From Siphonodentalium dalli (lineage: Eukaryota; Mollusca; Scaphopoda; Gadilida; Siphonodentaliidae), in contig CP136062.1 of assembly GCA_032622095.1 (NCBI GenBank), positions 132,573,282-132,637,281 on the forward strand: a stretch of DNA of 64,000 nucleotides, written 5' to 3'. A program made the translations under genes and the position numbers. The notes beneath the pieces were generated by a model. The model was not told where the DNA came from. It saw only the letters and a list, made by a program, of their open reading frames with translations, and searched no databases. Below are positions 9,293-60,299 of the stretch, one piece after another; the first letter of the stretch is position 1, and each line of letters opens with the position of its first letter.

Positions 9293-9344
<52 letters not shown>
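9293..9344. repeat. Poly-G tract, 52 nt
   Basis: An uninterrupted run of G. The length in the assembly is unreliable for homopolymers. It could form G-quadruplex structures. Confidence 0.95.
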
Positions 9345-9777: not shown

Positions 9778-10067
9778 GTATGTTTTATGGAGGTTTTGGA
9801 TCAAATACTAAATATATAGAATCTACAACTCGATCGTCCCCAGTTTATTATAGGAAAATTTTGCTATAAACAGGGGATGAGTTGTAGATCATCTATACGT
9901 CCGACCACCTACGCCAGGGGTAATTATGGGTACAGTCAGGCGTTTTGGAATATGGGAGAGGATGGTGTAAATGGACCATCTACAGTGGAGTCAACATAAT
10001 TAAGGTAGGTGAGAAACCAACAGTCACTTCTATTCAGCCCTCAAATTATAGTGCTGGTACGTTGCAA

Positions 10068-10161
10068 AAATGGGGTCCCCAGAGGGTGAAGCTAGTGGCA
10101 CTACCCCACACAGCGGGCTACCTCATTCTGCATGACCTCATCTGCTATGGGAGCCTGAACA
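10068..10161 (+). mobile_element. Foldback MITE, family D, left part, cut by the gap
   Basis: It contains GGTCCCCAGAGGGTGAAG, CACACAGCGGGCTA and CTGCTATGGGAGCCTG from family D. It runs into the N run. Confidence 0.7.
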
Positions 10162-10261
10162 NNNNNNNNNNNNNNNNNNNNNNNNNNNNNNNNNNNNNNN
10201 NNNNNNNNNNNNNNNNNNNNNNNNNNNNNNNNNNNNNNNNNNNNNNNNNNNNNNNNNNNNN
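10162..10261. other. Assembly gap of 100 N
   Basis: Exactly 100 N. Round-number gaps of this kind usually mark an unknown length. A family D foldback lies on the left and a family C palindrome on the right. Open frames read across it are meaningless. Confidence 0.98.
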
Positions 10262-10334
10262 TCCGACTAAATCCTGTAAAGTTACCCATAATTCTGCTGT
10301 GGTTAAGGGGTCAATTATTTAGGGCATTACTGTA
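10262..10334. mobile_element. Family C palindromic MITE, right half
   Basis: TCCGACTAAATCCTG, then TTCTGCTGTGGTTAAGGGG and GCATTACTGTA: the right arm of family C. The left arm is presumably in the gap. Confidence 0.8.
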
Positions 10335-12968: not shown

Positions 12969-13988
12969 GAAACCGAACAAATAGTAATTTAGGAGGCATT
13001 AATTCTGATTATATATCTTATTATAACTTTCCAATGACAAGATATTGCGTGACAAAATATTTGTTATGTAAACATTACTGTAACAGTAACAATAATTTTT
13101 TCAACAAATTCCACTATCAACAAATTCTGATCAAATCATGGATGGTTATAAAAGGTCAGAGCAATGAAATATATTTCAGAAAACACAGATTTTCACTCAA
13201 ACATTTGAATTGCATGGTGATGTTTGTTGTTAAAATGACCACTTACGTAACAGCAATATTTACATAACAATGGTTTCAACATGTGTAATCTCCTCATTGG
13301 AGAGTTTTCAATTTTCAATTACAAAAACTAACAACAAAGTCTATCTATTTTCCATTTTTATTAGTGGTTATGGTATTATATAGAGGATCTCTAATGAGTC
13401 GCAATTCTATATAAATTGTATAGAATTGCAATGAATTTGAGATATATTTTATCACATTTTAGCAAGGAAAAACGATCTTGAAATGGCTGGAGTTAAACAA
13501 GAAATTAATATATATTTCCTTTTCACAACAAAGAGGAATTAAAGACACCTTCAACAAAAAATATAGCTCCATTTTGAATGTGTCTTTTCATGTTGACAAC
13601 TTTGTTCAACCTCCCATGTTTATCTCACAGTCAACACTGAATATTATAACCCAACACAAAATTGAATATCAAAATTATATTCTAATTAGGCAAAAATAAA
13701 AGAGACCTGTGTTTCTGGTGACCCGCTCGCCCCTATTCTGGCGCCCCCAACCTTTTTCATTTTATTGATTTTGCAAAATTAGTATGCATCCGATTTTATT
13801 TTCCTGTAAACTGATTCATTTCCGAAAAAATGGACACATCGCGGGTACTGATAAACGGAAATTATACCACACTTCAGTTAGGTCACAGCTGAATCAAATT
13901 AATTTTTTCATGTTGTTTCAATAAAACAATAGATTACACTACATGTATAATCTAATATATGTACTTAGTTTTATTCTTTTATAGTACA
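12969..13988. other. AT-rich sequence, no gene recognised
   Basis: Only short open frames without recognisable features. The part at 13705-13770 has a reverse-complement relative at 17415-17500 (shared TGTGTTTCTGGTGAC and TTTTCATTTTATT), so the Helitron array is flanked by inverted copies of this segment. Confidence 0.4.
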
Positions 13989-14701
13989 CTAGCAGGTTAG
14001 CCCGGCATGGCGTGGTTCGTCTCATGGCTTTGTTCGAAAAAGCAATTGCAACAGCTTCCGAGACACGTATGCTGCATCTAGGTGTAAAATTTCGTCGAAA
14101 TCCGCCAGTTTTACCCGAATTGACCTTGAATTGATCATTTTCAAGGTCAAGGTCAGGGTCACAAATTTAACCCGTCCATGACACTTCCCGCACAAAAGTA
14201 CCCATAGGTAGCAAGTTTGAGCTCAATCGGTTCGAGTCTATAAAGGACACACACATATATATCATTTGTGGGTACCCGTTTCAAGGTGAAGATCACCTCG
14301 GGCGGAAAAACTGACCCGATGAAAATCTCCCCCCGTTCCTAGGAAACCCTAAGTATGTAAGAATCATACAAATCGCTCATGTCTGGATACAGTCACGCTC
14401 ACAGCCCCCGGACCCAGACGTAAGAATGACATTACACGCATACGCTCTTTATCAACGACACTGCAGATACGAACGCTCTTTAACTATCAACGTGATTAAC
14501 CCCACAGTGCTGTTTTTTGTGACTGGGAGTGGAGAATGGGTGCTGGGAGCTTCTCCAAAATGCCGCGACGAACATTCCCGTGGGTTTTTACCCTTAGATA
14601 GGAAGTTTGGTCTCAATCGGTTCAGCCGTTTTCGATTGATTATATATATATATATATATATACGCACATATATATACAGAAGTCTCAAATTATATAGTAG
14701 A
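13989..14701 (-). mobile_element. Non-autonomous Helitron, array unit 1
   Basis: On the minus strand it begins TCTACTATATAATTTGAGAC at 14701 and ends ...GGGCTAACCTGCTAG at 13989, followed by T. A TC start, CTAG end and T after the end are Helitron hallmarks. It contains a (TA)n tract and a TCAAGGTCAAGGTCA block. No Rep or helicase coding sequence. Confidence 0.75.
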
Positions 14702-15497
14702 CTAGCAGATTAGCCCGCCACTGGCGGCAATCGTCAGCAACATGACAATTTTTATTTTTTAAATTATTTTTTTAATTTAATTTTTTGTTTTTCAATGAGT
14801 TAATTATGCCTTTTTAATTTACTGGCTTTTTAAATTATTTTTTTTAATTAATTTTTTAATTTAATTTTTTGTTTTTCAATGAGTTAATTGTGCCTTTTTA
14901 ATTTTCTAATTTAATTTTTTGGTTTTCAATTTTACTCGATTTGACCTTGAATTGATCATTTTCAAGGTCAAGGTCAGGTCGGGTCACAATTTAACCTGTC
15001 CATGACACTTCCTGTGGGTAGCAAGTTTGAGCTCAATCGGTTCGAGTCTATAAAGGACACACTCATATATATCATTTGTGGGTACCCGTTTCAAGGTGAA
15101 GATCACCTCGGGCGGAAAAACTGACCCGATGAAAATCTCCCCCGTTCCGAGGAAGCCCTAAGTACGTAAGAATCACACAACACGCTCATGTCTGGATACA
15201 GTCACGCTCACGTGTGGACCCAGACGTAAGAATCACATTACACGCATACGCTCTTTATCAACGATACTGCCGATACGAAAGCTCTTTAACTATCAACGCG
15301 ATTAACCCCACAGTGCCGTTTTTTGTGACCGGGAGTGGAGAATGGGTTCTCGGAGCTTCTCCAAAATGCTGCGACAACGCGTCCCGTATGATTTTACCCT
15401 TAGATAGGAAGTTTGGTCTCAATCGGTCCAGGCGTTTTCGATTCTATAAAGTATATATATACACACATATATACGAAGTTTCAAAATATATAGTAGA
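14702..15497 (-). mobile_element. Non-autonomous Helitron, array unit 2
   Basis: Minus strand: starts TCTACTATATATTTTG at 15497 and ends with the hairpin CCGCCAGTGGCGG, nine bases, then CTAG at 14702. Its CTAG directly abuts the TC of unit 1. It shares long blocks with unit 1, including GTGGGTACCCGTTTCAAGG. Non-coding. Confidence 0.8.
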
Positions 15498-16531
15498 CTA
15501 GCAGGTTAGCCCGCCACTGGCGGCATTCGTCCCATGGCTTTGTTTCAGAAACATGACATTTTTGAATATGAATTTAATATTTTTTAAATTTAATATATTT
15601 TGTTTCTGAATTGTTTTTTATTGTTAATTTTTTTTAATTTTAAATTGTTTTAATTAAATTGTAAATTGTTTTAATTATTTTTTTTGTTTCTGGCGGAAAA
15701 ATTTACCCGTAGAAATCCCCCCTTCCTAGGAACGACAGACAACATTGCATTGAATTTAAAACAAACGCTTCCCGTCGGGAAATCTGTCTGCATAATATTT
15801 CGAGTCTGCCGTACCCGTCGTAATGTCGTGAAATCTCTCTGCATAATAGATAACATTGCATTGAATCTGTTGTTGGCATTCAGGGCTTCGGGTCGTTGTT
15901 GTTGGCATCACGGCTCCCCGAAAACTCTCACATTGCCGAAAACGTGTATTTAGTAATATCGTTGTTGTTGATATTTACGGCTTGGGGGCTATTTTCTTAT
16001 TTAGCAAGTTTGAGCTCAATCGGTTCGAGTCTATAAAGGACACACTCATATATATGACACTTCCCGTGGGTAGCAAGTTTGAGCTCAATCGGCATTCCCT
16101 GGAATTTCCTGTAGATTGGCAGATTCCAGTAGCTTTATAACGGTATATCTGGGGAGAAATCTGATGCTATATTCGTGATTATCTGGGATGATTTCGGTAT
16201 ATAACTATATACTGTAAAAACAAAGCGCGCCATCCGTGCTCGCAGGGTTGGTCAGAAACAAATGTTTTTTAAATTTAATGTATGTTCCGTATATCTCTCT
16301 GCAGATGCAAATAACGTTGAATGGCAAACAGACGCTCTTTATAGAGATGCGTCAAAAACAAACGCTCATTAAATAATCACTTGATTAACCCATGCCGTGT
16401 CTTTACGGTGATTTGAGATTGGAGAACGGGTCCTCTGAGCTTCTCTAAACCGCGACCACGGTCGTGTCGATGGGATTTGACACTTACATAGGAAGTTTGA
16501 GCTCAATCTGTACACGCGTTTTGCATTCTAT

Positions 16532-16573
<42 letters not shown>

Positions 16574-16599
16574 CGAAGTCTCAAAATATATAGTATAGA
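15498..16599 (-). mobile_element. Non-autonomous Helitron, array unit 3
   Basis: Minus strand: starts TCTATACTATATATTTTGAG at 16599 and ends CCGCCAGTGGCGG, GCTAACCTG, CTAG at 15498. About 1 kb (15577-16599) is nearly identical to 45548-46580. An (AC)n tract lies near the 5' end. Non-coding. Confidence 0.85.
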
Positions 16600-17122
16600 C
16601 TAGCCGATGAGCCCGACGTTGTCCGGGCTATTCATCCGGGCTATTCAAAAACCAAATTTCAAGTCGTTAGCTCCACCCGTTTCCGAGATCTGGTCTGCGC
16701 ATGCGCGAAGCTGGCGTCGCACGGGCTCGGCGACCCGATAAAATTCGTATCCGGGGCAAGATACATTCACATACCAAATTTCAAGTCGATAGCTCCACCC
16801 GTTTCCGAGATCTCGTCTGTGCATGCGCGAAGCTGGCGTCGCACGAGATCGGCGACCCGATAAAATTCGTATCCTGGGCAAGATACATTCACATACCAAA
16901 TTTCAAGTCGATAGCTCCATCCGTTTCCGAGATCTCGTCTGCGCATGCGCTGCACGGGCGTCGCACGGGCTCGCCAATATGACAACGTCCACCGCCTGGT
17001 CAAACTACACACACGTACCAAGTTTCGTCCCGATCGGTCGAGAATCGTAGATTTGTATCAATGACAAACATACAGACAGACAGACAAACAAACAGACAGA
17101 GGTCTTCAAAATATATATGAGA
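16600..17122 (-). mobile_element. Non-autonomous Helitron of a second family, array unit 4
   Basis: Minus strand: starts TCTCATATATATTTTGAAG at 17122 and ends with an AGCCCG...CGGGCT hairpin and CTAG at 16600. It differs internally from units 1-3: it carries three 122-bp tandem units and a GACAGACAGACA-type tract near its 5' end. Confidence 0.75.
16651..17016. repeat. Tandem repeat, 3 x 122 bp, inside Helitron unit 4
   Basis: ACCAAATTTCAAGTCG recurs at 16651, 16773 and 16895, and a diverged start at 17017 keeps the same 122-bp spacing. Each unit has CCGTTTCCGAGATCT and CTGCGCATGCGC. The G+C content is higher than the surroundings. The open frames on both strands here are repeat translations. 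Confidence 0.92.
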
Positions 17123-17409
17123 CTAGCAGGTTTAATAGCCCACCACTGGCGGCGTTCGTCAGAAACATGACAATTTTTTATTTTTTTAATTTCAAATTTT
17201 TTTAATTAATTTTTTACCCGATTTGACCTTGAATTGATCATTTTCAAGGTCAAGGTCAGGTCGGGGTCACAATTTAACCCGTCCACGACACTTCCCGTAG
17301 GTAGCAAGTTTGAGCTCAATCAGTTCGAGTCTATAAAGGACACACACATATATATCATTTGTGGGTACCCGTTTCAAGATGAAGATCACCTAGGGCGGAA
17401 AAACTGACC
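17123..17409 (-). mobile_element. Truncated Helitron, array unit 5
   Basis: It has the 3' end (CTAG at 17123, minus strand) and the shared TTCAAGGTCAAGGTCAGG and GTGGGTACCCGTTTCAAG blocks. It breaks off after ACTGACC at 17409, so the 5' terminus is missing. Confidence 0.75.
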
Positions 17410-18507
17410 ATATTTATTTTCAAAAAAGTTGACAATAAAATAAAATGAAAAGTCACCCGCCCGCCCCTATTTTTTTCTTGCATGTCACCAGAAACACAGA
17501 TGTATATTGTTTTGGCATTAACATAATAATAACAATGATCGATATCATTGCTTTGATCTCTGACGTCACTGCATGTGCCGATAATACACATGTGTCTTAC
17601 TAAAAATATGAGGCCGGGTTTAAGGGCTAATTACATGATTAAAAACTCTTTTGATTTTTCACATTTACCAAATTTGAAGAGCTTGTGTCCCTTTCATAAG
17701 CGGGCCTTTAAGCAACAGAGCATACATGTGCTTGTATTAAAGGATAAAAATCAAGCTCGCCTTGCTCGACAATGCAAAACCTTGATTGTGTTTAACATAT
17801 GAACACTGGGTTGAATGTTTAACAAACAGTAAAAATCCAATAGATCTATATACAAAAAGAGCATCTATAAAGCATGACCGAGTCAAAGGAACCGGCTCCT
17901 AGCAATTATAAACTAAGACAATGACACCGTTTGAGAATATTGATGTCACCCGGATGCCAATGATACGAAATATCACGCATTCGTATCATCGACTTCCGCT
18001 GGAATTATTGCAGGGAAAGATGGCAAACGGAGAACGTTTGAGAACAATAGAAATCTTCTGATTCCAATAAGAAGAAATTAAGGACTAAGATAATCATGCT
18101 GAGTCTTTTATCTTTCTGCTATGGTTTTGAACAATGAAATTCGCATTATAAAAGCTTCGTTTTTAAAACCATTATTGCAGTGAAGCTTTTTAGTCTAAAG
18201 ATGAGAATTCTCGTGACGAATGGAGAGGGCATTTAAAAGAACAATTAGCGGTAATGATTTTATGTCAGCATATGTGTATATATGGAATTGACTAGCAACA
18301 ATTGTTTTCTAAGTCTCGCTTATGATCATGAGAGTTAACATATTGAGTGCTACACACATCAGTGGAAGGGCCATTCCTTGGGAATAACATCTTTTATTAG
18401 AGGCTGAGTGATTTGTTGGTTCAATTGAATCATGTACAATACGTGGCTCATACAGGTCACACCTATACATACAATTCAAGGCCATTCAAGAGAATTATGC
18501 AACATTT
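17410..18507. other. Mostly unassigned; includes an inverted relative of 59.4 kb
   Basis: 17570-17635 (GCCGATAATACACATGTG, ATATGAGGCCGGGTTTA, GGGCTAATTA) matches 59380-59440 in reverse complement. The rest shows no repeat or coding signal. Confidence 0.45.
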
Positions 18508-22498: not shown

Positions 22499-23196
22499 TT
22501 AACCCTTTCAGTGCCAAGTCCGATTTTTGTATCAACCCATATTTCCTTGATCATTTTTCAAATTTATTGATTATAATAATGTGATACATTGATGAAAAGA
22601 GCTCTCATAATACTCTTATTTATGTGGGCAGTAGCCTCTATACGGGCGCCTGTGGCGCATAAGATACTATGGGTGGCGGGATGGGGGGTGGCTGGGCTCT
22701 CATAATACTCTTATTTATGTGGGCAGTAGCCTCTATACAGGCGCCTGTGGCGCATAAGATACTATGGGTGGCGGGATGGGGGGTGGGTGGGCTCTCATAA
22801 TACTCTTATTTATGTGGGCAGTAGCCTCTATATGGGCGCCTGTTGCGCATAAGATACTATGGGTGGCGGGATGGGGGGTGGGTGGGCTCTCAAAATACTC
22901 TTATTTATATGGGCAGTAGCCTCTATATGGGCGCCTGTGGCGCATAAGATACTATGGGTGGCGGGATGGGGGGGGGTGGGCTCTCATAATACTCTTATTT
23001 ATGTGGGCAGTAGCTTCTATACGGGCGCCTGTGGCGCATAAGAGACTATGGGTGGCGGGATGGGGGGTGGCCGGGCTCTCATAATACTCTTATTTATGTG
23101 GGCAGTAGCCTCTATACGGGCGCCTGTGGCGCATAAGATACTATGGGTGGCGGGATGGGGGGTGGCTGGGCTCTCATAATACTCTGAAAGGGTTAA
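22499..23196 (+). mobile_element. PiggyBac-type MITE, family B, with a tandem array replacing one arm
   Basis: TTAA at 22499-22502 and 23193-23196. The left 100 bp (CCCTTTCAGTGCCAAGTCCG to GAAAAGAGCTCT) matches copies at 41191 and 57045. The right arm of the family is absent except for about a dozen bases (CTGAAAGGG next to TTAA). Between them lie six 95-bp units. Confidence 0.85.
22601..23185. repeat. Tandem array, 6 x 95 bp, plus a partial unit
   Basis: GCTCTCATAATACTC recurs at 22601, 22696, 22791, 22886, 22980, 23075 and, partly, 23170, a spacing of 95, 95, 95, 94, 95 and 95. Each unit contains GGGCGCCTGTGGCGCATAAG (a small GCGCC/GGCGC hairpin) and a G-rich GGCGGGATGGGGGG. Units differ by only a few bases. 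A Gly/Trp-rich open frame here is an artefact. Confidence 0.95.
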
Positions 23197-37858: not shown

Positions 37859-37939
<81 letters not shown>

Positions 37940-45311: not shown

Positions 45312-46580
45312 GTAATTTGTGGGTACCCGTTTCAAGGTGAAGGTCCCTCAGGTGGATAAACTGACCCGACGAAAATCTCCCCCGTCCCTTGGAAGCCCTA
45401 AGTAGGAAATTTCGTCTCGATATCCCGAGTTTCCAAGACGGTCGATTGAGCCGTATTTATACTCGTGTATATAAACGCTCTTTAACAACGACACCGCAGA
45501 TACAAACGCTCTTTAATCATTAACCTCATTAACCCATCAATTCAAACGTTTTTTAAATTTAATATATTTTGTTTCTGAATTGTTTTTTTATTGTTAATTT
45601 TTTTTAATTTTAAATTGTTTTAATTAAATTGTAAATTGTTTTAATTAATTTTTTTGTTTGTGGCGGAAAAATTTACCCGTAGAAATCCCCCCTTCCTAGG
45701 AATGACAGACAACGCATTCTTTGTTTCGTGAAATCTCTCTACGATAACATTGCATTGAATTTAAAACAAACGCTTCCCGTTGGGAAATCTGTCTGCATAA
45801 TATTTTGAGTCTGCCGTACCCGTCGTAATGTCGTGAAATCTCTCTGCATAATAGATAACATTGCATTGAATCTGTTGTTGGCATTTAGGGCTTCGGGTCG
45901 TTGTTGTTGGCATCACGGCTCCCCGAAAACTCTCACATTGCCGAAAACGTGTATTTAGTAATATCGTTGTTGTTGATATTTACGGCTTGGGGGCTATTTT
46001 CTTATTTAGCAAGTTTGAGCTCAATCGGTTCGAGTCTATAAAGGACACACTCATATATATGACACTTCCCGTGGGTAGCAAGTTTGAGCTCAATCGGCAT
46101 TCCCTGGAATTTCCCGTAGATTGGCAGATTCCAGTAGCTTTATAACGGTATATCTGGGGAGAAATCTGATGCTATATTCGTGATTATCTGGGATGATTTC
46201 GGTATATAACTATATACTGTAAAAACAAAGCGCGCCATCCGTGCTCGCAGGGTTGGTCAGAAACAAATGTTTTCTAAATTTAATGTATGTTCCGTATATC
46301 TCTCTGCAGATGCAAATAACGTTGAATGGCAAACAGACGCTCTTTATAGAGATGCGTCAAAAACAAACGCTCATTAAATAATCACTTGATTAACCCACGC
46401 CGTGCCTTTGCGGTGATTTGAGATTGGAGAACAGGTGCTCTGAGCTTCTCTAAACCGCGACCACGGTCGTGTCGGTGGGATTTGACACTTACATAGGAAG
46501 TTTGAGCTCAATCTGTACACGCGTTTTGGATTCTATGAAGTACACACACATATACGAAGTCTCAAAATATATAGTATAGA
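45312..46580 (-). mobile_element. Non-autonomous Helitron, near-identical to array unit 3
   Basis: The minus-strand 5' end, TCTATACTATATATTTTGAG, starts at 46580 directly after host A. 45548-46580 matches 15577-16599 almost base for base apart from a few substitutions, a roughly 50-bp difference near 45712 and a shorter (AC)n tract. The 3' end (left side) lacks the CTAG terminus and is truncated or rearranged; the left limit is approximate. Confidence 0.8.
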
Positions 46581-59130: not shown

Positions 59131-59504
59131 TTTCTCCTTTTTTTTTAAACTGGGGATATATCTAAAAGATCCTTAATTGGGAGCTCAAGATATTTAATTA
59201 TAGTGTAAACATGTGCTGGGAAGTGCAAGGGCTCTTTGGTATTTTAAATTGAAATTTTTACTTTAGTTACAAATCTGGTCCAAGGGCTTAACATGACATA
59301 GCTCATATATACTCATTTGCAGTTTCCGATTGCTTCTATAATTTCAGTTTTATATCATTTTTAATCCCTCATAATTAGCCCCTAAATCCGGCCTCATATT
59401 TTTTAGTGAGGCACACATGTATTATCGGCATGTGCAGTGATGTAAAAGCTTGCACAATGATATCAATGTCAATGCAGGAACTTTATTATAATGTTAATTA
59501 GAAT
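59131..59504. other. Sequence with an inverted relative at 17.6 kb
   Basis: 59380-59440 matches 17570-17635 in reverse complement (CCGGCCTCATATTTT, CACATGTATTATCGGC). Otherwise nothing recognised. Confidence 0.5.
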
Positions 59505-60185
59505 ATAACAAGAGAGGGACTCTCATCCATTTCATACCTCTTGTTGCATCTGGCCTAGTGTGGGCATATATATAACCTATGACTGATATACTATGACAGA
59601 TGGGCCCAAAAATCAGCATTTTCATATAAACATAAGATGAATAACTATAGAACGAAAAACCTAAACAAAATGATTAAACATGCCATTGGATGTCCTCATA
59701 GTGGGGAACATCCAAACCACATTTCACTGAGATCTGAGAATTAATGTTCATGTTATGACCTGAACAAACATTGGAGTGACCAAAAAGCCAACATTTCCAA
59801 ATAAATGAAGATGAATAACCCTAGAAAGGAAAATCTGAACAAAACAATGGAACCCTCTGTTAAATGGACTCATAGTCGTGAACATCCAAACCCAATTTCA
59901 TTGAGATCTGAGCAAAATTGTTGAAGTTAGGACGTGAACAGACATCAGACGGACCAAAAAGCCACAATTCCAATAAACAAAGATGAATAACTCTAGAATG
60001 GAAAATCAGACCAAATGATGGAACCCTTTATTGTATCTCCTCATAGCAGTGAACATCAACACCAAATTTCATTGAGATCCGAGCAGTTATGACATGAACA
60101 GACATAGGACGTACATAGGCATGCACGCCCAGACACTGTGCAAAACATTATACCCCCCTTTATTTAAAAAAAAGATGGTATAATT
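59505..60185 (+). repeat. Family G composite repeat
   Basis: The head AACAAGAGAGGGACTCTC is followed by three core units with CAWATAAACAWAAGATGAATA spaced about 185 and 163 bp, each followed by a CATTTCATTGAGATC.GAGCA-type block. The tail has TATACCCCCCTTTATTT and AAGATGGTATAATTA. Confidence 0.72.
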
Positions 60186-60299
60186 ATGATATTCAATTTA
60201 TGTTGGGTTTAATATATAGTGTTGATTGTGAGATAAACATGGGTGATAAGAGCGGTTATCATGAAAAGACAAAACATACATCATATACACTGTCGTATA

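Follow-up and report, generated by a model that had tools for sequence, protein, structure and literature searches.

The system described here is an array of five Helitron-type units lying head to tail, with zero bases between neighbours, on the minus strand (17409 to 13989) of a 64,000-nucleotide stretch of the scaphopod Siphonodentalium dalli (GCA_032622095.1, CP136062.1, positions 132,573,282 to 132,637,281; hereafter the window). The array is probably a stack of canonical Helitrons of the Helraiser type, in which newcomers inserted again and again into the 5′ heads of resident copies or immediately before them. The original prediction had left the choice between end-to-end insertion and rolling-circle read-through open; split heads decide for insertion over read-through at a large class of junctions in the genome, and since the four junctions of the window are free of scars, we infer the same process for them.

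The array and its units

The units are numbered U1 to U5 along the minus strand, U1 being the 5′-most and U5 the 3′-most (Table 1). The CTAG|TCT junctions announced at 14701/14702, 15497/15498, 16599/16600 and 17122/17123 are all four present at these bases. The five seamless Helitrons of the original prediction hold as Helitron-type units, of which four are complete and U1 is truncated at its 5′ end: TCT opens U2 to U5 and CTAG closes all five. A type-A 3′ end (GCCGCCAGTGGCGGGCTAACCTGCTAG and variants) is common to U1, U3, U4 and U5, and only U2 differs, by a type-B end (GCCCGGACAACGTCGGGCTCATCGGCTAG); the order is A-B-A-A-A, and not the alternation of two families that had been supposed. The 3′ hairpin expected before CTAG is seen by eye in U3 and U4 (CCGCCAGTGGCGG) and in U2 (GCCCGGACAACGTCGGGC) and is decayed in U5, and folding with RNA parameters recovers this stem for U2 and U4 but fails to do so for U3. 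Furthermore, the array is no simple tandem duplication, as had been proposed: U2 is unrelated to the other units, U3 gives only a partial match of about 70% to U4 and U5, and the closest complete pair, U4 and U5, shares 87.2% identity over 600 positions. The 3′ border of the array reads CTAG|TGTACTATAAAAG at 13989/13988.

Table 1. Units of the array and a related copy in the window
Feature	Position	Strand	Description
U1	17123..17409	-	5′-truncated unit with type-A 3′ end; corresponds to U4 from base 372 onward (91%)
U2	16600..17122	-	complete, other family; head TCTCATATATATTTTGAAGACC; microsatellite of CTGT, 2.7 copies of a 122-bp repeat, hairpin end of type B
U3	15498..16599	-	complete; head TCTATACTATATATTTTGAG; type-A end; young family
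U4	14702..15497	-	complete; head TCTACTATATATTTTGA; type-A end
U5	13989..14701	-	complete; hairpin decayed; followed by host TGTACTATAAAAG
Dispersed U3-like copy, outside the array	45315..46580	-	matches U3 1-1020, then U4/U5-like pieces; 3′ end unlike that of U3

The mere count of the heptamer CTAGTCT was rejected as evidence, the window holding 7 copies for 4.61 expected, with 7 or more in 19 of 100 shuffles; the case rests on the ends of the units. Four of the seven copies fall exactly at repeat-unit ends, and this, together with the recurrence of those ends elsewhere, is beyond chance.

Recurrence of the unit ends in the genome

The genome comprises 2.23 Gb in nine contigs, and unit ends were searched in it with U3 (fetched loci) and with a joint U1+U2 query. 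In the fetched loci, eight other matches span the whole of U3 (1-1102) at 92.0-95.1% identity, gaps counted, and lie in a different neighbourhood; one locus, present in two copies, supplies two of them. For the joint query, in which U2 occupies 288-810, 31 of the 85 matches listed run from 279-288 to 809-810 at 94-99%. Copies whose ends depart from the junctions, which would have spoken against the original prediction, are thus not what is found for U3 and U2, the units tested. The dispersed U3-like copy of the window likewise begins at the first base of U3, at 46580, and is preceded by host CCATA. Twelve full-length U3-type units, that of the window included, differ from their consensus by 0.4-1.1% substitutions (0.9% for U3), a closeness that suggests transposition activity.

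Stacking concerns the whole genome. The exact type-A 3′ end GGCGGGCTAACCTGCTAG occurs in 10,907 copies, and its 24-base form, with up to 2 mismatches, in 16,185. Of the 10,907 exact ends, 6,569 (60%) have an exact head motif no more than 20 nt downstream, and controls with reversed patterns give 0 both for the 3′ end and for the end-plus-head search. A local control in the fetched regions, which are a non-random sample, agrees: of 105 ends, 79 have the exact head at 0-32 nt, whereas 840 control offsets of 150-500 nt yield it 3 times.

Split heads and their pairing

The spacers between a 3′ end and the next head reveal how the units came to be joined. In 112 3′ ends parsed in 66 regions, the head begins with TCTATAC, and is complete, in 32 cases, with TAC, and lacks TCTA, in 17 (C1 11689577, a host flank, being excluded) and with TCTAC in 13; in six, the spacer is TCTATCTATAC, with an orphan TCTA ahead of an intact head; other types are less common. 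The first 100 end-plus-head places listed genome-wide give TAC 23 times, TCTATAC 20, TCTAC 15 and TCTCA 10. Resident heads are split at TCTA^TACTATATATTTTG. Truncated heads abutting CTAG (CTAG|TACTATATATTTTGAGACTTC) number 1,766 in the genome, and an orphan TCTA precedes the head (TCTA|TCTATACTATATATTTTGAGACTTC) in 871 of 4,087 complete heads of that kind; TACTATATATTTTGAGACTTC occurs 7,660 times in all, the remaining 1,807 including TCTAC heads. The head without TCTA and the orphan TCTA are the two halves of one head: a newcomer landing at TCTA^TACTATATA, which is an A^T site, leaves TCTA on its upstream side and TACTATATA on its downstream side.

Along the strand these halves form pairs. On C1 up to 140.8 Mb, where the test covered 100 truncated heads and 46 orphan-bearing heads, 29 orphans have a truncated head on the same strand within 12 kb, and 26 of them have their nearest one on the 3′ side (p = 1.5e-5). 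Matching the halves like brackets yields 27 pairs, the 22 clusters allowing at most 28; within-cluster shuffles have a mean of 17.4, and none of 20,000 reaches 27, a P value that is optimistic because tandem duplicates are counted as independent. An earlier version of the test on 15 arrays is not relied on, since we picked and coded these arrays by hand and, at C1 10.73 Mb, one orphan and one truncated head were overlooked; it had matched 16 orphans out of 20 (P = 0.0065), where shuffles averaged 10.5. The array at C7:102.18 Mb, read from host to host, illustrates the pattern: host ACA|TCTA|u1|u2|TAC-u3|u4|TCTA|u5|TAC-u6|u7|host. Its two orphans and two truncated heads balance and nest correctly; u3 and u6 may be non-independent, since they are 99.7% alike.

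We considered TACTATATA as a natural 5′ terminus and rejected it: eight of the nine U3-like copies that start at base 5 stand directly after CTAG, and the ninth after CTAGTG, and the host-flanked U3-like copies (five of five, two with the same flank) start at base 1. Some heads, for example those at C1 11851774 and C2 82941756, follow an orphan TCT in place of TCTA, and no CTAG|ACTATATA partner was found for it among the parsed ends.

The target site

The base directly after CTAG is T in 111 of the 112 parsed ends, and among the legible host-flanked heads, 12 of 13 have A before the head itself or its orphan. The full set was 18 heads; four of them come after a decayed 3′ end, and a fifth, lying in a TA microsatellite, allows no judgement. 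Past the last CTAG of a stack, TATA lies within 14 nt in 14 of 16 distinct flanks and TATATA in 10, whereas among the window's 13,215 A^T sites the shares are 12.0% and 2.2%; a misfiled head is left out of this count, and one of the 16 flanks is a head in reverse orientation. The heads of the family, TCTATAC-TATATATTTTG, have the same make-up as these host target sites. Because they resemble the preferred host flanks, heads would be good targets by virtue of their make-up.

The search for a clean empty host site gave none. The candidate tried, 59372-60271 (+) of the window, was rejected as a pre-insertion site; it is a paralogue of the flanks, but its middle differs. The array flanks 17517-17633 and 13581-13679 match this one repeat, whose middle consists of 174-bp tandem repeats, and they carry an inverted repeat of 45 nt at 76%.

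The autonomous element

The original prediction called for an autonomous Helitron with Rep and helicase domains and the same ends, and one was found for the ends of U2. The Pfam domain Helitron_like_N has at least 151 matches in the genome, one of which sits in a dense array at C1:13.74 Mb, in an open reading frame of 1,613 aa with the domains Helitron_like_N, PIF1 and STPR. The translation contains HSH and YVCKY, which we take to be the Rep motif (HUH, two tyrosines), and the protein aligns with Helraiser (PDB 7lcc) over residues 156-1586 at 2.4e-271. The whole Rep-Hel element measures 8,675 bp. Bases 1-361 of U2 align with its bases 1-349 (82.6%) and bases 491-523 with its last 33 (97%), the first and last bases of both coinciding. 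Since head and 3′ end are shared, U2 appears to be a relative of such an element with the interior deleted. The Rep-Hel element is itself stacked, with CTAG|TCTATCTTCTA before its head and CTAG|TCTCTTCTATATATTTTG after its 3′ end. An autonomous partner was traced for the ends of U2 only, and none for type-A ends. The Rep-Hel protein (L069 3165-8003, minus strand) starts with a short repeat, built around SETDEQSQLRLDADRQSTALSRA and present in many copies, which Pfam assigns to STPRs.

The proposed model

The model we propose combines two modes of landing. In the first, which is read from the footprints of the whole genome, the newcomer lands inside the resident head at TCTA^TACTATATA and separates its two halves. 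In the second, which would account for the seamless junctions, the four of the window included, it would insert at the A^T formed by the base before the head and the first T of the head; such an insertion leaves CTAG|TCT without a scar, and stacks built in this way would grow mainly in the 5′ direction. The transposase would be provided by Rep-Hel elements such as that of C1:13.74 Mb, to judge from the ends of U2. Growth toward the 5′ side is likely, not proven, because in one pair of loci, described below, the extra unit lies on the 3′ side. The distances to the nearest relatives are used only as a hint to the age order, as they are biased by the many loci fetched for their likeness to the array, and to U3 above all. 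U2 and U3 have close relatives (for U2, 2.5-5% distant in the fetched loci and 98-99% identical genome-wide), and U4 and U5, for which no search of their own was made, have none in the fetched loci, as expected if the 3′ units are older.

Could the 5′ head be the family's own landing pad? Its TATATA block would mimic the preferred host target, so that residents attract newcomers, autonomous copies end up in these stacks as well, and the growing "Helitron cities" would spare new host DNA; we hold the chances for and against this extension to be evenly balanced.

A number of observations weigh against the model or against its strict form. The four junctions of the window carry no footprint, and the fetched loci hold no close relative of U1, although this 5′-most unit should be the youngest under the model. 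Along C1 as far as 140.8 Mb, a truncated head within 12 kb is lacking for 17 of the 46 orphans. One truncated head at C1 5.79 Mb and three at C1 49.0 Mb lack an orphan, and at C1 11.64 Mb an orphan lacks a TAC head. At C1:19.19 Mb two further upstream orphans were predicted and one was found, at the host edge; the surplus truncated head sits in a block present twice at 99.8-100%, and this duplicated block can explain the rest of the imbalance. Finally, strict growth toward the 5′ side is called into question by a paralogous pair of loci, L016 (C1:7065197-7068220) and L017 (C1:7415869-7418892), in which the latter has an extra unit of 807 bp between the shared unit and the shared host flank, either gained at CTAG^T or lost from the other by recombination.

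Alternative explanations

This pair speaks for the first alternative, in which new units join at the 3′ end of the resident, by insertion at its own CTAG^T boundary, which the transposase can cut. L016 consists of unit Y and host, and L017 of Y, a unit X and the same host, the shared parts being 97.5-98.7% identical; moreover, a seamless CTAG|TCT cannot separate insertion on the 5′ side from insertion on the 3′ side. However, the target would be G^T instead of the usual A^T, L016 may derive from L017 by recombination between 3′ ends that share GTGGCGGGCTAACCTGCTAG, and joining at the 3′ end yields no split heads. We consider it unlikely.

Rolling-circle read-through, in which CTAG is bypassed or a circle is copied repeatedly and the concatemer is inserted in one step, is the explanation given for tandem arrays in the relevant part of PMC4067079, and it fits near-identical runs such as the 1301-bp units (99.5-99.9%) at C1 49.0 Mb. 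It predicts junctions that are uniformly precise and units copied from a single template, not the 1,766 truncated heads of the genome paired with orphan TCTA; among the 112 parsed ends, the 17 truncated heads and the orphan TCTA depart from such precision. In the window the units are at least 13% divergent or unrelated, which does not suit one template, and U3 and U2 are seen with exact ends beside other neighbours. As the origin of the array, read-through is therefore very improbable.

Hardly better placed, and if anything a little worse, is the tandem duplication of an older array by unequal recombination. Blocks of 99.8-100% identity at C1 19.19 Mb and runs of 1118- and 1301-bp units at C1 49.0 Mb speak for it, but the array of the window has no near-identical units, its closest complete pair standing at 87%, and duplication makes no new kind of junction. 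In other arrays, duplication of units or blocks is shown as a second process: the near-identical units at C1 49.0 and 19.19 Mb are the product of unit duplication, by recombination or by insertion of a concatemer. The region C1:49026000-49045999 (L071-L072) holds at least 15 units, with repeats of 1301 bp (99.5-99.9%) and 1118 bp (99.9%) in a higher-order repeat.

An assembly artefact is barely conceivable: repeats are a known source of misassembly, but junctions found by thousands on both strands, with few spacer types and ordered footprints, are unlike misassembly.

Relation to known Helitrons

These elements are canonical Helitrons. Further Helitrons use their heads as insertion sites, and heterogeneous stacks thereby arise throughout the genome. 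The canonical termini (5′ TC, 3′ CTRR) appear as TCT...CTAG in U2 to U5 and in the Rep-Hel element; the bases at the target agree with insertion at A^T without target-site duplication; the 3′ hairpin is present by eye in U2, U3 and U4 and by folding in U2 and U4; and a partner with Rep and a Pif1-type helicase is known for the ends of U2 only. The T-rich target and the lack of CTRR that mark Helentrons and HINEs are not observed, as the units end in CTAG, with A before and T after. From what PMC4067079 gives on DINE-1/HINE elements, U2 resembles them in the microsatellite and short tandem repeat that separate its head from a 3′ palindrome, but those elements have sub-terminal inverted repeats and a T-rich target, whereas U2 shares TC...CTAG with a canonical Rep-Hel element.

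Among the closest known systems is Helraiser/Helibat1 of the bat Myotis, which, as far as the relevant parts of PMC4778049 and PMC5876387 describe it, has the same 5′ TC, 3′ hairpin, CTAG and A^T target; the former adds a preference for AT-rich DNA, strongest on the 3′ side, and AT targets are confirmed in wheat in the part of PMC13286980 concerned. The retransposition of Helraiser is described in PMC4778049 without clustering around donor sites, whereas here 60% of the exact type-A ends directly precede a head.

Tandem arrays of Helitrons have so far been taken as the outcome of bypassed termination or of circular intermediates. The sections of PMC4067079 on arrays attribute those of bat and silkworm to bypassed termination and report that in bat and maize Helitrons of distant kinship can adjoin one another, and those of PMC5876387 take head-to-tail junctions and tandem arrays as support for the rolling circle. 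These bat, silkworm and plant arrays are head to tail like ours, but here the split heads mark insertion. In Fusarium, PMC5148889 describes one FoHeli4 lying 2 bp upstream of the 5′ end of another, with insertion at the 5′ end as one option named, and does not choose between insertion and rolling circle for a tandem of three copies in Metarhizium acridum; the FoHeli are single cases with non-canonical termini, in contrast to the thousands of junctions with paired footprints found here. Multi-terminus Helitrons of maize, derived from nested Helitrons according to the accessible text of PMC3288121, are likewise composites, but end-to-end stacks and split heads are absent from that description. 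In the accessible text of PMC3789558 the words tandem and array do not occur. In the literature surveyed, mostly by listing and with subscription papers outside it, we found no report of split-head footprints or of stacking at such a scale, which is no proof of absence.

The nested footprint separates insertion from read-through in plain sequence and orders the events within an array, and the split-head test is applicable to the genomes of bat, silkworm, maize and fungi. If heads are landing pads, stacking would amount to self-targeting, sparing host genes and supplying material for composite Helitrons.

Other features of the window

No Rfam family and no tRNA was found in the 64-kb window, which has only two open reading frames of at least 120 aa. 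A gap of 100 N lies within 9945-10322 and accounts for about 34 X codons in a listed open reading frame. A 95-bp unit is repeated 6.2 times at 22601-23185 with 95% matches, and runs of 79 G and 52 G occupy 37860-37938 and 9293-9344, respectively.

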